64,000 bases of DNA, taken from assembly GCF_024331145.1 (NCBI RefSeq), contig NZ_JANDJO010000003.1, positions 1 through 64,000 on the forward strand, in the 5' to 3' direction. The translations under genes were made by a program, and so were the position numbers. Shown one piece after another: positions 2,642 through 45,471 of this stretch (positions within the stretch are counted from its first letter, which is position 1; every line of letters starts with the position of its first letter). Under the pieces are notes generated by a model. It was not told the origin of the DNA and searched no databases. It saw only the letters and a program-made list of their open reading frames with translations. This DNA is from Shimia sp. CNT1-13L.2 (lineage in GTDB: Bacteria > Pseudomonadota > Alphaproteobacteria > Rhodobacterales > Rhodobacteraceae).

Positions 2642-3948
2642 GCGCTTGCCTCTGCGATCAGGTGGAAGAAGGTGCCGGTGGTGTTGCCCTTGACCGAGCC
2701 GGTCTCGGGCACCGGATTGCCGTCAGCGTCGCCAACCTCGGCGAGTGGGGCATCCGGTTCTTCCAGGATGGTGGAATAGTGGAATTCGTGGCCGCGAAGG
2801 CGAGCGCCGGTCTCGAAACCGGGCATCGGTGCCTTGAGCGCGGCCTGACGATAACCAAGGTGGAACTTGCGTTTTTCGTATGAGGTGACGAGGCCCAGCA
2901 AGCCTGCCATCTGGTGGCGGGTGCCTTCCTTGTCGATCAGGACTTCGCCAAGCGCCATGTAGCCACCGCATTCGCCGTGAACGGGTTTGGTTGCTGCGTG
3001 CTCGCGCAGGCCCGCCAGATAGGTCGATGCCGCGGCAAGGGTGCCGGCATGCAGTTCGGGATAGCCACCCGGGAGCCAGACCAGATCGGCATCCTTTGCC
3101 GGCGCTTCATCGGCCAGAGGCGAGAAGGGCAGGATTTCGGCACCTGCCGCACGCCAGCCGCTCAGGACGTGGGGATAGGTAAAGCTGAAGGCCGCGTCCT
3201 GTGCCAGCGCAATGCGTTGCGCCGGCGGCTTGGGCAGGGTGCCCGTGCGCGCAGCGCCCGCCTTGGCGGCGGCCTTGATGGCCTCAAGGTCCACGTGATC
3301 GCGAAGGAAGGTCGCATAGCCCTGGATTGCGGCTTCCAGGTCGGGGTGTTCAACCGCCTGGATCAGGCCAAGGTGGCGTTCAGGCAGGGCAAGGTCACCG
3401 CGACGCGGCAAGACGCCCAGCACGTTGATCCCGGCCTTGTCCATCCCAAGCCGTGCCAGACGTTCGTGACGCGGCGAGGCGCAACGGTTGAGGATCACAC
3501 CGGCAAAGGGCAGGTCGGGATTGTAGGCCTTGAAGCCCAGAGCGGTGGCCGCAGCAGACTGTGCCTGTCCGCCAACGTCGATCACCAGAACAACCGGCCA
3601 TCCCATCATCAGGGCGGTTTCGGCAGAAGAGCCAAAGCCGCTCTCTCCACGTGTTGCAACCCCGTCGAAAAGCCCCATCGAGCCTTCGGCAACGATGATG
3701 TCCGCACCTTGCGACTGTTCGGAAATGCCGCCGATCAGGCCTTCGTGCATGGCCCAGCTGTCAATGTTGAACGACGGGCGATGCGCCGCGGCACGGTGAA
3801 AGGCCGGGTCGATATAGTCGGGGCCGGACTTGAAGGGCTGAACTGTCAGGCCATCTTCTGCAAGGGCCCGCAGAAGCCCAAGCATCACGGTGGTTTTGCC
3901 GGTGCCCGAGGAGGGCGCGGAAATCAGGATACCGGGGGCACTAGTCAT
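2638..3948 (-). CDS. cobB: Hydrogenobyrinic acid a,c-diamide synthase CobB
   Basis: An ATP-dependent glutamine amidotransferase that amidates the a and c side chains of hydrogenobyrinic acid. The N-terminal P-loop [10 protein letters not shown] is at residues 11-20. The C-terminal class I-type GATase has nucleophile Cys at about 327 (HGECGGYM) and HEFHYS near 387. I chose the ATG at 3948, giving 436 residues, because GGAG lies eight bases upstream; an in-frame ATG at 3954 sits only two bases after that GGAG. The frame is open further upstream into cobM, but that would give an abnormal N-terminus. The gene overlaps the end of cobM by a few bases. Confidence 0.94.
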
Positions 3949-37614: not shown

Positions 37615-39372
37615 ATGACACCAGCCGACAGCAAGGATATTTCGAGCCGCGCAACGATGGCCCTGATCGGAGGCGTCGTGGGCTTTGCGATGTGGATGTT
37701 GATCGACGTGGTGCCAGATGTCCTGACCAACCCGCATGTCTTTGTGACGGTCACGGCGGCGGTGGCGGGCTTCAGCGGCGTTTTGCTCGGGATTGTCGGG
37801 CCGGTGCCATTGCGGCGAGCGGTGCCGGGCGCTCTTGGGCTTGCGATACCGGCGGCCCTTGCGCTGGGCTGGGCCAGTCTGCGCCACGAGACGCTTCAGG
37901 GGTTCGGAGACGACGGGCTTGCCCTGCTGGCCTGGGCGGTGATCCTCTTCGTGGGAACGCCGTTCATGGCCGTGCGCCTGATTCACCCCGATCGTTGGCG
38001 CAACTATGGCGAACTCTTTGATTTCAGCTGGTCGGTGGTGGTGCGCTATTCGGCGGCCTGGCTGTTTGCCGGCGTGTTCTGGGGTATTCTGCTGCTTTCG
38101 AACGCCCTGTTCGAGATCGTCGCGATCACCATTATCGAAGACCTTCTGGACATCGATCCCGTACCCCATGTCCTGACCGGCGCGGTTCTGGGTCTTGCGC
38201 TGACCGTGGTCTACGAGATGCGGGAATATCTCTCGCCCTTCATGGTGCTGCGCCTGATGCGCATCCTCGTGCCGGTGATGGTCGTCGTGGTTGGCGTCTT
38301 TGCGCTTGCTCTGCCGTTTCGCGACATGAACAACCTATTTGGCGGGCTGTCCCCCTCGGCCACGCTCCTGGTGGTTGCCATCGGCAGCATCACCCTGGTC
38401 AGCGTCGCCGTCGACCGCAGTGATGATCGTGCCGTGGCGCTGCGGTTCATGCGTCTGGCAACCGAAGCGCTTGCCATTCTGCTCGTGGTTCTGGCCGGGC
38501 TGACGGTCTATGCGATCTGGCTTAGGGTCGATCAGCATGGCTGGACGCCCGAACGCCTTGCCGCGGCCATCGCAGCCGGCATCGTTTCGACCTATGCCGT
38601 GGTTTACGCCCTTGCCGTTGCCCGGCGTGGCGGCTGGATGCAGCACGTGCGTGATGCCAATGTCTGGGTGGCGCTGGGGGTGATCGGCGTGGCTTTTCTC
38701 TGGCTGACACCGGTCCTCAATCCCGAACGGATCGCCACCAACAGCCAGGTTGCGCGCTACCTTGACGGCCGCGTGTCTGCCGATGATGCCGCGGTCTGGG
38801 AAATGGCGCATGATTGGGGGCGGGCCGGGCAGGTGGGCCTTGCGCGTCTGGCCGCGCTGGAAGGCGAAGAACACGCCGATATTCGCAAGGCGATTGACCT
38901 TGCGGGCCAGACCGACCGCCGCCATGTCTTTCAGCGGCGCTCTGGTGACAAGGCGCGCGAGATCAAGGTGGCCGATCTGCTGGCGAACCTGACGGTGGTC
39001 GGCTCCGGTGCCGAGATGACCGCGGATGCGCTGTCCATTCTGCCAGACTTCCGCCTTGACGACTGGGGGCAGGTCTGTGCCCGGGCCAGCGATCCCGGCT
39101 GTGTTGTGGTGATCGGGGATTTTGGCGGGGCCGAGGGCGCGGAAGGCATCCTGTTCCTGCCGCGCCGAGGGGTGCACTATGACGCCATCCAGCTGCGCTT
39201 CGAAGAGGACAGGCTGATTGCCGGTGCCTTCCTGCGCAACCAGAGCCGCGACGGTGTGGCCGAAATCACGGAGGACGACGTGGCGCGGATCAAGGCGGGT
39301 GACTTTGAAATCGCCCCCTCAAGCCGCAAATCGCTCTGGTTGGACGATCTGGAAATAAGTCCTGACAATTGA
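37615..39372 (+). CDS. DUF4153 membrane protein
   Basis: A 585-residue polytopic protein of the DUF4153 family, with about ten hydrophobic helices in the first 370 residues followed by a soluble C-terminal domain of about 200 residues. The core region includes YSAAWLFAGVFWGILLLSNALFE and VYEMREYLSPFMVLR-type segments. No function has been assigned to this family. A 6-bp inverted repeat (GCTTTA-AAC-TAAAGC) precedes it. It ends 64 bases before the H-NOX gene and may be on the same transcript. Confidence 0.75.
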   Translation: MTPADSKDISSRATMALIGGVVGFAMWMLIDVVPDVLTNPHVFVTVTAAVAGFSGVLLGIVGPVPLRRAVPGALGLAIPAALALGWASLRHETLQGFGDDGLALLAWAVILFVGTPFMAVRLIHPDRWRNYGELFDFSWSVVVRYSAAWLFAGVFWGILLLSNALFEIVAITIIEDLLDIDPVPHVLTGAVLGLALTVVYEMREYLSPFMVLRLMRILVPVMVVVVGVFALALPFRDMNNLFGGLSPSATLLVVAIGSITLVSVAVDRSDDRAVALRFMRLATEALAILLVVLAGLTVYAIWLRVDQHGWTPERLAAAIAAGIVSTYAVVYALAVARRGGWMQHVRDANVWVALGVIGVAFLWLTPVLNPERIATNSQVARYLDGRVSADDAAVWEMAHDWGRAGQVGLARLAALEGEEHADIRKAIDLAGQTDRRHVFQRRSGDKAREIKVADLLANLTVVGSGAEMTADALSILPDFRLDDWGQVCARASDPGCVVVIGDFGGAEGAEGILFLPRRGVHYDAIQLRFEEDRLIAGAFLRNQSRDGVAEITEDDVARIKAGDFEIAPSSRKSLWLDDLEISPDN

Positions 39373-39436: not shown

Positions 39437-40024
39437 ATGCATGGTCTGATCAACAGGGCGATCCAGTGTTTCGTTCAGGACAACTACGGCTTTGATCGCT
39501 GGCAGAGCATGTGCTTTGCCGCCGGGTTGGACGAGGTCGAGTTCGAAGCGATGCTGCACTACGAGGATGAGCTGACGGACCAGCTGCTTGATATGGTCTC
39601 GGCCGCGCTGAAATCCCCCCGTGACACGGTTCTGGAAGACATCGGAACCTACCTTGTGTCGCATCCCAACGTCGAAGCCTTGCGCAGGTTGCTGCGGTTT
39701 GGGGGCGAGACCTTTGTTGATTTCCTGAATTCGCTTGAGGAACTTCCCGATCGGGCGCGGCTGGCGGTGGATGATCTGGTTCTGCCGCAACTGGACGTCC
39801 GCGAAGTCGACCCGCATCATTTCCGTCTCACCTGCCGATTTCCGCGCCCGGGGTTCGGGCATGTGGCTGTCGGTATTCTACGCACGCTGGCTGATGACTA
39901 TGGGGCGCTTGTCTTTCTGGAACATAACGGGGTTCTGGCCGGTGCAGAAGAAATCGACATTACCCTGATCGAAACGGCCTTTGCCAAGGGGCGCAGTTTC
40001 GAGATCGGGGCGCGGGCGGTTTAG
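39437..40024 (+). CDS. H-NOX-domain protein with Pro in place of the haem-ligand His
   Basis: A 195-residue stand-alone haem-nitric oxide/oxygen binding domain. The N-terminus MHGLINRAIQCFVQDNYG and LLRFGG are conserved with H-NOX and soluble guanylate cyclase beta. An ungapped match of FLNSLEELPDRA to cyclase FLQNLDALHDHL puts Pro104 where the proximal haem His belongs. The YxSxR haem-propionate motif reads R130, T132, R134, so only the Arg is kept. Haem binding in the usual way is therefore doubtful. It ends three bases before a GGDEF gene, the usual H-NOX partner arrangement. Confidence 0.85.
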   Translation: MHGLINRAIQCFVQDNYGFDRWQSMCFAAGLDEVEFEAMLHYEDELTDQLLDMVSAALKSPRDTVLEDIGTYLVSHPNVEALRRLLRFGGETFVDFLNSLEELPDRARLAVDDLVLPQLDVREVDPHHFRLTCRFPRPGFGHVAVGILRTLADDYGALVFLEHNGVLAGAEEIDITLIETAFAKGRSFEIGARAV

Positions 40025-40027
40025 GGT

Positions 40028-40993
40028 ATGTTGCATGATCGCGATATCGCGCAGCTTCTGGCGCGGCTGTGCCCCATGCACCTTGCGGTGGATGAGCAGG
40101 GGCGGGTGATGCACATCGGGCCGACACTTGCCAAGCTCTTGCCGGACAAGCGCAAGGAGGACGCCTGCCTGTTTGACCTGATCGAAGTGCGCCGGCCAAG
40201 CGGTGTGTGCGATATGAACGCCCTGCTGGCACGACAGCGGCAGAAACTTTCTCTGCGTCTGCGCGGGCATGGGGGGCATGCCTTCAAGGGGGTGTTCGTG
40301 GCCGTGCCCGGGCAGGGTGGAATCCTCGACCTCTCTTTTGGCATCGCGATCATGGATGGGGTCCGCGACTTCGAACTCAGCGCCTCTGATTTCGCGGTGA
40401 CCGACCTCGCCATCGAGATGCTCTACCTGATCGAGGCCAAATCGGCAGCGATGGAGGTGTCGCGCAAGCTTAACCAGCGGCTTCAGGGGGCAAAAATCGC
40501 AGCTGAGGAACAGGCCTTTACCGACACGTTGACCGGCCTCAAGAACCGCCGCGCGGTGGATCACGTTCTGCCCCGCCTGATCGACCGGGGCGAAGCGGTG
40601 ACGCTGATGCAGGTGGATCTCGATTTCTTCAAGGCGGTGAACGATACCCATGGCCATCCGGCGGGGGATCACGTGTTGCAAAGCGTCGCCCACGTGCTGG
40701 TGCAGGAAACCCGACAGGGGGATTGCGTGGCGCGGGTGGGCGGTGACGAATTCGTCATCATCCTTGTTGGTGAGGTGGACGAGGCCGCGGTTGCCCATAT
40801 CGCCCAACGCCTGATTGAACGGATCGAGGCCCCGATCCGCTGGCGTGGTGACACCTGTGAAATCTCGGCGTCGATCGGTATTGCGACCAACGCCTTTGGT
40901 AGTGGCGATACAGGCGAAACACTGTGGGCGCGCGCCGACACCGCGCTGTATGCCGCCAAGAATGGCGGGCGTGGCCGTTTTCGTATGGCTTAG
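40028..40993 (+). CDS. Diguanylate cyclase with N-terminal H-NOXA-like domain
   Basis: A 321-residue protein. The first 115 residues resemble the H-NOX-associated (HNOBA/PAS-like) domain of soluble guanylate cyclase (LCPMHLAVDEQGRVMHIG, then DLIEVRRPSG). A coiled helix (LIEAKSAAMEVSRKLNQRL) connects to a GGDEF domain with catalytic GGDEF at 238-242. The allosteric I-site RxxD is intact as RQGD (229-232), so product inhibition is expected. Three bases separate it from the H-NOX gene, and the H-NOX protein very probably controls this enzyme. Confidence 0.88.
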   Translation: MLHDRDIAQLLARLCPMHLAVDEQGRVMHIGPTLAKLLPDKRKEDACLFDLIEVRRPSGVCDMNALLARQRQKLSLRLRGHGGHAFKGVFVAVPGQGGILDLSFGIAIMDGVRDFELSASDFAVTDLAIEMLYLIEAKSAAMEVSRKLNQRLQGAKIAAEEQAFTDTLTGLKNRRAVDHVLPRLIDRGEAVTLMQVDLDFFKAVNDTHGHPAGDHVLQSVAHVLVQETRQGDCVARVGGDEFVIILVGEVDEAAVAHIAQRLIERIEAPIRWRGDTCEISASIGIATNAFGSGDTGETLWARADTALYAAKNGGRGRFRMA

Positions 40994-41027: not shown

Positions 41028-43388
41028 TCAGCGTTTGTTTTTCATCGCGTTCAGCAGGGCATCGCCCAAGGCGCCCGTGCCACCGCCCTGGGGTTTGCCA
41101 CCCTGATGACGGCCCGCGCCTTGGGGTTTGCCCTTGCCCTGATAGGTGCGCTGTCCGCCCTGCGGTTTGCCGCGTTGGGGCTTGTCGCCCCGGTTTCCGG
41201 CGCCGCCCGCATCCCGGCCACCGCCGTCCTTGCGCATCGACAGGCCGATACGTTTGCGCGGCGCGTCCACCTCGGTCACGCGGACCTTGACCACGTCGCC
41301 GGTTTTCACCACCTCATGCGGGTCTTTGACAAAGCGATCCGCCAGCTGACTGATGTGGACAAGCCCGTCCTGATGCACCCCGATGTCGACAAAGGCCCCA
41401 AAGGCCGCCACGTTGGTAACGGTGCCTTCCAGCACCATGCCGGGTTTGAGATCGGAAATCTCTTCGACACCATCGGTAAAGGTGGCGGTCTTGAAGCTCG
41501 GGCGCGGGTCGCGGCCCGGTTTCTCAAGTTCGGAGAGGATGTCCCGCACGGTCGGTAGACCAAAGTTGTCGTCAACAAAATCCTCGGCGCGCAGGCGTTT
41601 CAACGCGCCTTCATCTCCCATGATGCTGCGCAGGTCACGGCCACAGGCCTCGACGATGCGGCGGGCCACGCCATAGGCCTCGGGGTGGACGGATGAGGCA
41701 TCCAGCGGCTCGGCCCCTTCGCGGATGCGCAGGAAGCCTGCGCACTGTTCATAAGCCTTCGGCCCCAACCCGCGCACATCAAGAAGGTCCTTACGCGCCG
41801 AAAACGCGCCGTGGATGTCGCGGTGCATCACCACCGCATGAGCCAGCGACGGCGTTAGGCCCGCGACATGCGACAGCAGCGGCGCCGAGGCCATGTTGAG
41901 ATCCACCCCAACCGCGTTCACCGCGTCCTCGACCACGCCCTCAAGCGCCTGTGACAGGCGGCGCTGGTCCACGTCGTGCTGGTACTGGCCGACACCGATC
42001 GACTGCGGTTCGATCTTCACCAGTTCGGCCAGCGGGTCCTGAAGGCGGCGGGCAATCGACACCGCACCACGCAGCGACACATCGAGATCGGGGAATTCGG
42101 CCGCGGCGGTTTCCGAGGCCGAATAGACGGATGCACCCGCTTCCGAGACCACGACCTTGGTGGGTTTCTTGATGCTGGCCGGCAGCAGTTTCAAAAGGTC
42201 GCCCACAAGACGTTCGGTCTCGCGGCTTGCGGTGCCATTGCCGATGGCGATCAGTTCCACGTCGTGTTTGCGGATCAGCTCGATCAGCTTGGCCTCGGTG
42301 CCGCGCAGATCGTTCTTGGGCTGGAAGGGATAGACGGTTGCCGTATCCAGAAGCTTGCCCGTGGCATCCACCACGGCCACTTTGACACCTGTCCGGATAC
42401 CCGGATCAAGGCCCAGTGTTGCCCGCGCACCCGCCGGAGCAGCGAGGAGCAAGTCTTTGAGGTTGCGTGCAAAAACCGTGATCGCCTCTTCATGGGCGGC
42501 GCGGCGCATCTCAGTCATCAGGTCAAGGTACATGGTCAGGCTCAGCTTGACCCGCCAGGTCCACGAGGCCGCAGCCCGCAGCCACTGATCGCCCGGGCCA
42601 TCGCCTTGGATGCCGATCTCGGCGGCGATCATGTCGACCGCGCGGGGAACACCGGTGTCGGCGTCAGGGGCGATCTCGATGCTGACGATTTCCTCTTTCG
42701 AGGCCCGCAGGATCGCCAGCGCGCGGTGCGATGGGATCGTCGCCCAGGCCTCGCGGTGATCGAAATAGTCCGAGAACTTGGCCCCGGCCTGTTCCTTGCC
42801 CTCCTGAACCCGTGCCGAGACAAAGGCCTCTTTCTTCATGAAATCCCGCAGCGATCCCAGAAGGCCCGCGTTTTCCGCCAGCGTTTCCACGAGGATGTCA
42901 CGCGCGCCGTTGAGGGCGTCTTTCACGGTTGCCACCGCTTCGGACAGATACCCTTCGGCCAGCGTTTCCGGCACGGCGGCGCGGTCATCAAGGATGGCCT
43001 GCAACAGCGGCTCCAGCCCGTTTTCCCGCGCGATCATCGCCTTGGTGCGGCGCTTGGGTTTGTAGGGCAGATAGATGTCCTCCAGCGCCGCCTTGGTGTC
43101 GGCACCGGCAATGGATTTCGCCAGCGCATCCGTCAGCTTGCCCTGATCCTTGATCGATTGCAGGATCGTTTCGCGGCGGGCTTCCATGTCACGCAGATAG
43201 GTCAGGCGATCAGACAGCGTGCGCAGCTGCGTATCGTCCAGACCCCCGGTCACCTCTTTCCGGTAGCGGGCCACGAAGGGCACGGTTGCGCCTTCGTCCA
43301 GAAGGGTCACAGCGGCCGAAACCTGGGTTGCGGCGGCGCCGATCTCGGTGGCGATGGTGCGGGCAATGCGGGCGGCGGTGGTGTCCAA
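41028..43388 (-). CDS. tex: Tex-family S1 RNA-binding transcription accessory protein
   Basis: A 786-residue cytoplasmic protein of the Tex family (Spt6-related). It has an N-terminal helical part, a YqgF-like nuclease fold ([20 protein letters not shown]), a helix-hairpin-helix pair, and a C-terminal S1 domain ([20 protein letters not shown]) followed by a Gly/Lys-rich tail. Tex proteins bind RNA and affect transcription and toxin expression. I chose the TTG start at 43388, giving [17 protein letters not shown], with GGAGAAAAGAAG upstream; the longer open frame is not family-like. Confidence 0.93.
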
Positions 43389-43539
43389 GGCTTCTTTTCT
43401 CCGACTGTTGGGAGGGTCTTGATAGCGGCGTGCAGGGGGGCTGCCAAGTGGAAGAAACCGCGATGCGGGGGGTTCCGTAAAAATACGATCCCGTAGTCCT
43501 ACGATTGACGGCGGGGGCGGGCTTGCGCGAAGTGAAGGG

Positions 43540-45471
43540 ATGAAACGCAAAGTAGTCTCCGCCGCCGAAGCTGCCGCCCTGATCAAGGATGGCGACACCA
43601 TCACCACCTCCGGATTCGTCGGGATCGGCGTGCCGGATGAACTCCTGTCGGCTGTTGAAAAACGGTTTGTCGAGACCGGGCACCCGCGTGACCTGTCGCT
43701 GGTCTTTGCCGCCGGTCAGGGCGACGGCAAGGAGCGTGGGTTGAACCGGCTTGGCCACGAAGGCCTGCTCAAACGAGTTGTCGGCGGGCATTGGGGGCTG
43801 ATCCCCAAGGTGGCGCAGCTGGCGACGCAGGGAAAGATCGAGGGCTGGAACCTGCCGCAGGGCTGTATCAGCCAACTGTATCGCGACATTGCGGCGGGCA
43901 AGCCGGGCATGTTGTCGAAGGTCGGGCTTGGCACCTTTGTCGACCCGCGTCTCGGTGGCGGCGCGATCAACGAGATCAGCACCGAACCGCAGGTCGAGTT
44001 GATGGAGATCGGCGGGGAAGAGGTGCTGTATTATCCCGCACCACGCCTGACGGTGGCCCTGTTGCGCGGCACCACGGCGGATGAGGCGGGCAATATCACG
44101 ATGGAGCGCGAGGCGCTGACCATCGACAACCTTGCACAGGCCATGGCGGTGCATAACGCGGGCGGCGTGGTGATCGTTCAGGTGGAACGCATCGCGCAGG
44201 CCCGCACATTGCCCGCGCGCGAGGTGCAGATACCGGGCATCCTTGTTGATGCCGTGGTGGTGGCCGAGCCGGAAAATCACCTTCAGACCTATCGCACGGC
44301 CTTTAGCCACGGGTTCACCAACCGCATCCGCTCTCCTCAGGGGGAAATCCCGCCGATGCCGCTGGATGCGCGCAAGATCATCGCGCGGCGCTGTGCGTTC
44401 GAACTGCCGGTCAACGGGGTTGTGAACCTTGGCATCGGCATGCCCGAAGGGGTGGCCGCCGTGGCCGCGGAAGAGGGGCTTCTGGAGCATATGACCCTGA
44501 CGGCAGAGCCGGGGGTGATCGGGGGGCAGCCTGCCTCGGGGCTGGATTTCGGGGCGGCGATCAACACCGACGCGGTGATCCCGCAGAACAACCAGTTCGA
44601 TTTCTACGATGGCGGCGGGCTCGATATGGCCTGTCTTGGTCTTGCGCAGGCCGACCGCCACGGCAACGTCAATGTTTCGCGCTTTGGCCCGCGTCTGGCC
44701 GGGGCCGGGGGCTTTATCAATATCTCGCAGAACGCGCGGCGCGTGGTCTTTGCCGGCACCTTCACGGCCTCCGGCCTCGATCTTGCCATCGAGAACGGGC
44801 AGATTGCGGTGCGCGAGGAGGGCAAGGCGCAGAAGTTTCTTGCCGATGTCGAGCAGATCACCTTCTCAGGCGCGCGTGCCGGACAGTTGGGCCAGCCCGT
44901 GCTTTATGTGACCGAACGCGCGGTGTTCGAACTGTCGGGGCAGGGGTTGAAGCTCATGGAAATCGCGCCGGGCGTTGATCTCGAGCGCGACATCATCGGC
45001 CAGATGGCCGTGCCGCCAGTGATCGACGACGAGCTGCGCCTGATGGATGACCGGATTTTCCGCGAGGGTGAAATGGGGCTGCGCACCGATCTGCTTCACC
45101 TCGATCTGCCCGACCGCATTGCCGTCGACCCGAGCGTGGGCCGTCTGTACCTCAACTTTGAAAAGATGCGGGTGCGTCGCCAGTCCGAGGTCGACCGGGT
45201 TGGCGAGTTGGTGGCTGCGGCCTGCGCGCCGCTGGCCGACAAGGTGGATGTGATCGTGAACTATGACGGGTTCAAGATCGACGAGACACTGGAAAACGAA
45301 TGGGCGCGGATGGTGGCGGCGTTGGATGCGCAATACTACCGCACGGTTTCACGCTATTCAGGATCGGCCTTCATGCGTATGAAATTGCACGAGGTTTTCC
45401 CACATGCCCGCCCGCATATCTTCGAGACAAGCGAACAGGCACGGTCTTTCCTCGACGCGGCGCAGTCCTAG
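43540..45471 (+). CDS. Acyl-CoA:acetate/3-ketoacid CoA-transferase with C-terminal extension
   Basis: A 643-residue CoA-transferase containing alpha and beta halves in one chain. The [13 protein letters not shown] region is in the first half, and the catalytic Glu323 is in EPGVIGGQP of the second, followed by [15 protein letters not shown]. The match to YdiF/propionate CoA-transferase ends near residue 515. The last 125 residues are an additional domain with a [15 protein letters not shown] segment, suggestive of a STAS/SpoIIAA-like fold. It may use acetoacetate, a product of the carnitine pathway, but that is inference. Divergent from tex; 151 bases lie between. Confidence 0.85.

Follow-up and report, generated by a model that had tools for sequence, protein, structure and literature searches.

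A Shimia H-NOX protein with proline at the proximal histidine position, encoded beside a diguanylate cyclase: a further member of a described group

Introduction

In an ordinary H-NOX protein, nitric oxide (NO) breaks the bond between the haem iron and the proximal His; the His, once released, rotates with helix F, and the shifted subdomains alter the activity of a partner protein. The H-NOX protein considered here is encoded in the first 64,000 nucleotides of contig NZ_JANDJO010000003.1 of Shimia sp. CNT1-13L.2 (this whole stretch is called the window below), where its gene, hnox, lies directly ahead of a diguanylate cyclase gene, and it has Pro104 in place of that His. Such a loss is already known in kind from a 2022 review (PMC8738867) and from Kumar & Spiro 2017 (PMC5588039), so the window protein adds one more member to a described group. 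Our best reading is that it inhibits its cyclase and has ceased to use the haem ligand of helix F.

The H-NOX protein of Paracoccus denitrificans strain Pd1222 was reported by Kumar & Spiro to lack the axial His, and their paper, citing Iyer 2003, notes the Rhodobacter sphaeroides H-NOX as His-less too; the model in the part of the paper that treats this protein nevertheless has NO acting through the His-less P. denitrificans H-NOX. In the 2022 review, a very large cluster seeded by the P. denitrificans protein, with network edges under 1e-47, is called "Group 5". According to its Group 5 section, the proximal His is found in <10% of members, "most being substituted with Pro", while the Gly hinges are kept, and this loss "begs the question" how NO or anything else is sensed. 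The window protein, a relative of the P. denitrificans H-NOX with Pro for the proximal His, fits that description.

Results

The hnox gene is a single open reading frame (39437-40024, forward strand) encoding 195 amino acids. Its product belongs to the PF07700 fold family, with the H-NOX fold and a score of 88.7 bits (E 5e-25) against a curated cut-off of 25.5, and its own genome has no second PF07700 match; the AlphaFold model has a predicted local distance difference test score (pLDDT) of 89.5. Among solved structures, the closest in sequence is Nostoc Alr2278, followed by the beta-1 subunit of soluble guanylate cyclase (sGC). A phmmer alignment to Alr2278 runs without a gap over residues 37-172 and places Pro104 (codon CCC, 39746-39748), the position of His105 in sGC beta, opposite the His of FMENLDNLHARV. 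In a MAFFT alignment with 27 rows of other H-NOX types from the same family, that column holds His in 26 rows and Gln in one. The central claim of the original prediction, that Pro replaces the proximal His, therefore stands.

The YxSxR propionate motif has also degenerated. The other-type rows have Tyr in 27/27, Ser in 26/27 and Arg in 27/27 at its three columns; the window protein has Cys133 and Phe135 for the Tyr and Ser and keeps only Arg137 (Cys133-Arg-Phe135-Pro-Arg137, 39833-39847). The original prediction was right that the Tyr and Ser are missing, but it placed Arg130 and Thr132 at their columns, and the phmmer and MAFFT alignments both put the site three residues later. Within the subfamily defined below, the Tyr is lost in all but 1/205 rows and the Arg is found in 13/205 only, the window protein among them. 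Both hallmarks of an H-NOX haem and NO sensor, the proximal His in helix F and the YxSxR motif, are thus missing from this protein. Its only cysteines are Cys11, Cys26 and Cys133, and the three-Cys zinc motif of the Cys-zinc redox H-NOX proteins was not found in it, Cys133 being alone in the C-terminal half.

The subfamily set comprises 234 members, 205 of them non-identical and 203 scored at column 104. The relatives include 80 of 132 from one search, and the family loci come from among the matches listed. From 273 loci we dropped eight that scored under 20 bits (L037, L039, L041, L042, L043, L044, L046 and L247) and three D. shibae plasmid stretches; L259, which has no residue at the first column, was also left out, so that 261/262 were kept. 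The truncated L025 and L263 lie outside the 203 rows, as do the loci from a class-wide sample, L320 and the P. denitrificans locus L326, which were read in part; L265 lies inside. Column 104 holds Pro in 153 rows, His in 13, Glu in 11, Ser and Gln in 5 each, Asn and Ala in 4 each, Arg in 3, Thr in 2, and Asp, Lys and Gly in 1 each. With His absent from 190/203 non-identical relatives, Pro104 is not a chance substitution, and the question raised by the original prediction of whether Pro at this site is widespread can be answered positively.

Every genome of the window's genus that was sampled (25/25) has a subfamily H-NOX, one of them truncated (G023), and 16/25 have a second, His-bearing H-NOX that the window genome lacks. 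Of 198 Rhodobacteraceae genomes, sampled as one from each genus, 138 match PF07700 and at least 129 contain a scored subfamily member, with Pro in 98 of the 129. In the class sample, PF07700 matches were found in 14/289 genomes, 4 of them from the window's own family. Ten loci belong to other families (L304, L306-L314); in nine of them the proximal-helix motif has its His where expected, as judged by eye, and the tenth, L314, is a remote match of 12 bits. A crude motif scan of these ten loci, which are 2.0-3.5 kb long, flagged a kinase-like frame in 7/10 and a GGDEF frame in 0/10. As far as sampled, the Pro-type H-NOX is a feature of the Rhodobacteraceae.

In the window, the cyclase open reading frame (40028-40993, forward strand, 321 amino acids) begins 3 bp past the hnox stop codon and matches HNOBA (H-NOXA; PF07701, 33.3 bits against a cut-off of 23.4) and GGDEF (PF00990, 140.5 bits), so that the pair with an H-NOXA-GGDEF gene named in the original prediction is borne out. 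The GGDEF active-site motif is intact (40739-40753), as expected of an H-NOX/diguanylate cyclase pair, and five residues ahead of it lies RQGD (40712-40723), the inhibitory (I) site of the form RxxD. A GGDEF gene follows directly in 202/205 loci, and the other three are accounted for by a contig end (L052, L263) or a broken gene (L025). All of the partners (202/202) have GGDEF or GGEEF, and 200/202 have RxxD at the same distance. At 132/202 loci the earliest possible cyclase start codon precedes the end of the hnox stop codon by 4 bases, an overlap that would fit translational coupling. The hnox gene itself is under purifying selection, with a median ratio of nonsynonymous to synonymous substitution rates (dN/dS) of 0.044 in 32 pairs of 80-99% identity.

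The His residues at column 104 are scattered over the tree, with one congener of the window organism among their carriers, and this is new in the present analysis. The tree was made with a "quick" method that excluded column 104, was rooted for display with three other-type rows, and has several weak deep branches. It takes 11 changes on this tree to account for the 13 His rows, against a shuffled mean of 12.76 (range 10-13; 2% of 300 shuffles were as low), compared with 2 changes for Glu (shuffled 10.8) and 27 for Pro (shuffled 44.9). One His row, L028, which is identical to L078 ("Rhodobacteraceae bacterium Alg231_30"), lies inside a clade of the window's own genus in which 17/18 rows have Pro (support 97), and it offers a ready natural comparison. 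Because Pro and His codons are one base apart, column 104 may drift between the two, and because the deep branches are weak, gain and loss of His are indistinguishable on this tree.

To the further question of which His is conserved in place of the lost one, only His2 (39440-39442) comes near an answer, being present in 184/203 subfamily rows, in most members with His104 as in most without it, and in 0/27 other-type rows. Other candidates were too variable to serve as a conserved replacement ligand: His98 (129/203), His76 (152/203), Cys133 (125/205) and His163 (81/108, in a first alignment). Eight of the 203 members have none of His2, His76 and His104. A basic cluster specific to the subfamily, Arg83-Arg84-x-x-Arg87 (39683-39697), is nearly invariant (201, 202 and 203 of 203), as is Tyr155 (202/203); the prevailing residues at those four columns among the 27 other-type rows are Tyr (23), Pro (22), Phe (25) and Phe (25).

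Cytochrome-d1 type matches (PF02239) are clustered outside the window in the same genome (G000:C7:342895-353799; best E 6e-119), and because of these genes the organism probably makes NO. Denitrifiers were called by a nirS-type PF02239 match at E <=1e-80, a cut chosen in this analysis, or a nirK match (TIGR02376) above its cut-off, with positives transcribed by hand. Carriage of nirS or nirK was seen in 6/10 His-type genomes and in 42/119 others (Fisher p 0.17), which lends no support to an association; the species are non-independent.

Directly upstream of hnox lies a gene for a DUF4153 membrane protein (37615-39372, forward strand; PF13687, 37.4 bits). Of the 175 loci that have >=2 kb of sequence on the upstream side, 70, that of D. 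shibae among them, have a DUF4153 homologue ending <=300 bp upstream of hnox; the gene is part of the neighbourhood and a candidate member of the H-NOX/cyclase system. On the other side, convergent with the cyclase gene, a long frame on the reverse strand (41028-43607) has an S1-like RNA-binding C-terminus and looks Tex/YhgF-like by eye.

Some loci depart from the common arrangement. G023, from a congener of the window organism, has an hnox frame (L325, G023:C2:209000-217000, at 3261-3602) that breaks off at about residue 88. The scan flagged no GGDEF frame in this 8-kb stretch, which reaches about 4.4 kb beyond hnox, and the genome is without any other PF07700 match; the H-NOX/cyclase operon looks deleted there. 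The subfamily hnox at L320 (G288:C2:181000-187500) is broken into two frames, matching 1-71 and 69-194, and is followed by a GGDEF frame of 336 amino acids; this is either a pseudogene or a sequencing error. L318 and L319 (G239 and G222, group g199) encode an H-NOX of the typical kind, bearing both His and YxSxR, followed by a GGDEF frame of 636 amino acids from stop to stop, and are apparently a separate H-NOX/cyclase pair in the family.

Discussion

We tentatively read the window H-NOX as a regulatory subunit of the adjacent diguanylate cyclase that works independently of haem ligated by a helix-F His, a reading that we hold with somewhat less than even confidence. It is built on the fold, the Pro, the gene pair, the purifying selection on hnox and the spread of the subfamily, all of which are observed. 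Since a His bond is impossible with Pro104, we propose that the protein would sit permanently near the NO-activated, partner-inhibiting state of an ordinary H-NOX. Control would then be exerted through the amount of H-NOX, or through another ligand or contact, rather than by NO via helix F, and haem would be either absent from Pro-type proteins or not used by them. The sign of the proposed effect comes from P. denitrificans, a Pro-type species by a record of the same species, where a mutant in hnoX is partly impaired in attached growth while the dgcAB mutant, which lacks both diguanylate cyclases, overproduces biofilm; these opposite phenotypes suggest that the H-NOX inhibits the cyclase. That the inhibition is direct, and that it is constitutive, would be further steps. 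The interpretation in the original prediction, that the usual haem coordination is gone and that another ligand, another signal or a haem-free partner role has taken its place, is in this way partly supported.

Several observations weigh against this proposal. The sGC-state preference seen in structural comparison rests on models without haem and fails elsewhere: the Shewanella oneidensis H-NOX has no preference (NO form 4u9b 18.9, unliganded 4u99 19.1), for Manduca sGC one comparison is a tie (active 6pat 16.4, inactive 6pas 15.7) and another has the opposite order (ligand-free compact 9oxn 18.2, extended drug-bound 9p2r 12.4), and Foldseek puts the NO+Rio form 8hbf (template modelling (TM) score 0.77) below the inactive 8hbe (0.79). 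The Manduca comparisons in particular lowered our confidence. An AlphaFold control, a His-bearing H-NOX of the same genus, was poor (pLDDT 75.4, 7 rows); its reading frames began upstream of the start codon, which gave the first row 20 false residues. In the portions of the literature examined we found no measurement of haem or of cyclic di-GMP (c-di-GMP) on a Pro-type protein, and c-di-GMP in P. denitrificans is given as below detection in the relevant part of PMC12582929. The NO-bound form need not inhibit at all, since that of Caulobacter does not inhibit its kinase according to PMC12329717. Nor does loss of YxSxR exclude haem, since the D. shibae orthologue, also without YxSxR, is listed in PMC8846402 as a haem NO sensor. 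Finally, NO is modelled through a His-less H-NOX in the account of Kumar & Spiro themselves, and the window organism, with its cytochrome-d1 type genes, probably makes NO.

It is possible, but on balance rather unlikely, that another residue, His2 being the likeliest, still holds haem in the pocket and that NO is still sensed, with the cyclase inhibited on NO binding. The N-terminus of helix A lies near the haem, and His2 is both common in the subfamily, with or without His104, and absent from the other-type rows; in the AlphaFold model, however, residue 2 is predicted to be a strand or bridge residue. The listing of the D. shibae protein, which has both His2 and His104, as a haem sensor and the NO model of Kumar & Spiro speak for a retained haem, as do the retained cyclase and the cytochrome-d1 type genes. 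On the other hand, the YxSxR Tyr is lost almost throughout, His2 is missing in 19/203 members, and the 8/203 with none of His2, His76 and His104 still have the cyclase gene adjacent.

We also think it unlikely that the fold has been reused, with Arg83-Arg84-Arg87 and Asp153-Asp154-Tyr155-Gly156 together providing a new site, either for binding a small anionic molecule or for special contact with the cyclase. The near invariance of the three Arg and of Tyr155, at columns that are mostly aromatic or Pro in the other-type rows, is what such a site would lead one to expect, but conserved charges may serve only for fold stability or partner binding, and we know of no ligand for the Arg83/Arg84/Arg87 site. 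A bolder version, which we regard as quite doubtful, is that the subfamily is independent of haem and swapped gas sensing for a new site around Arg83/Arg84/Arg87 and His2, through which a small molecule or the cyclase itself, rather than NO, would set c-di-GMP synthesis, and that the scattered His104 proteins, that of D. shibae included, would be repeated re-acquisitions of haem ligation or relapses to it, on a scaffold that had ceased to need it. That column 104 is neutral in a degenerating, functionless paralogue, as the twelve residue types there and the decayed copies in genus and family (G023, G288) might suggest, is very improbable given the dN/dS of 0.044, the invariant residues elsewhere, the match in 25/25 genus genomes, one truncated, and the mutant phenotype in P. 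denitrificans.

The H-NOX proteins of this subfamily mostly lack the residue said to sense NO and yet are kept beside a diguanylate cyclase. "Haem NO-binding" names in databases, and the usual account of NO and c-di-GMP, are unsafe for these bacteria. Natural His/Pro pairs, such as L028/L078 within the genus, make the sensing question directly testable.

Our set agrees with the figure of <10% His in the Group 5 section of PMC8738867, having 13/203 (6%). It differs in that Group 5 is said there to lack any conserved Cys, while Cys133 is present in 125/205 of our rows; that section gives no Shimia-like example and no tree of the His/Pro site, and it mentions neither His2 nor the Arg cluster. The Vibrio cholerae H-NOX works haem-free in vitro as a zinc/cysteine redox sensor (PMC7108781); unlike the window protein, it has a Cys-zinc site, and every sequence in the network of that paper keeps the proximal His. 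The Cereibacter (Rhodobacter) sphaeroides protein (G075, L199) has Pro at column 104, like that of the window. The P. denitrificans locus (L326; NZ_CP141053, strain HAMBI_2443) also resembles the window's in having Pro at column 104, His2 and a GGDEF frame after hnox; its H-NOX is 33% identical over the domain (E 6e-33 in a single comparison), lacks residues 77-79 and, by eye, has a different-looking frame upstream. Judging from the species and the gene pair, it is probably Pden_3719, which lies beside DgcA (Pden_3720).

The operon of D. shibae (L140), presumably the gene pair studied in Bedrunka 2018, is orthologous to that of the window in its order of DUF4153, hnox and HNOBA-GGDEF genes, with 43% identity between the H-NOX proteins (Dshi_2815) and 47% between the cyclases (Dgc1). 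Its NO-bound H-NOX is said to inhibit Dgc1, as cited in the corresponding parts of PMC7232146 and PMC8846402. The D. shibae protein shares His2 and the loss of YxSxR with the window protein but keeps the proximal His (LDDLHDRA), and since D. shibae (His) and P. denitrificans (Pro) have both been studied genetically, the two forms of this system can be compared in organisms already in use.
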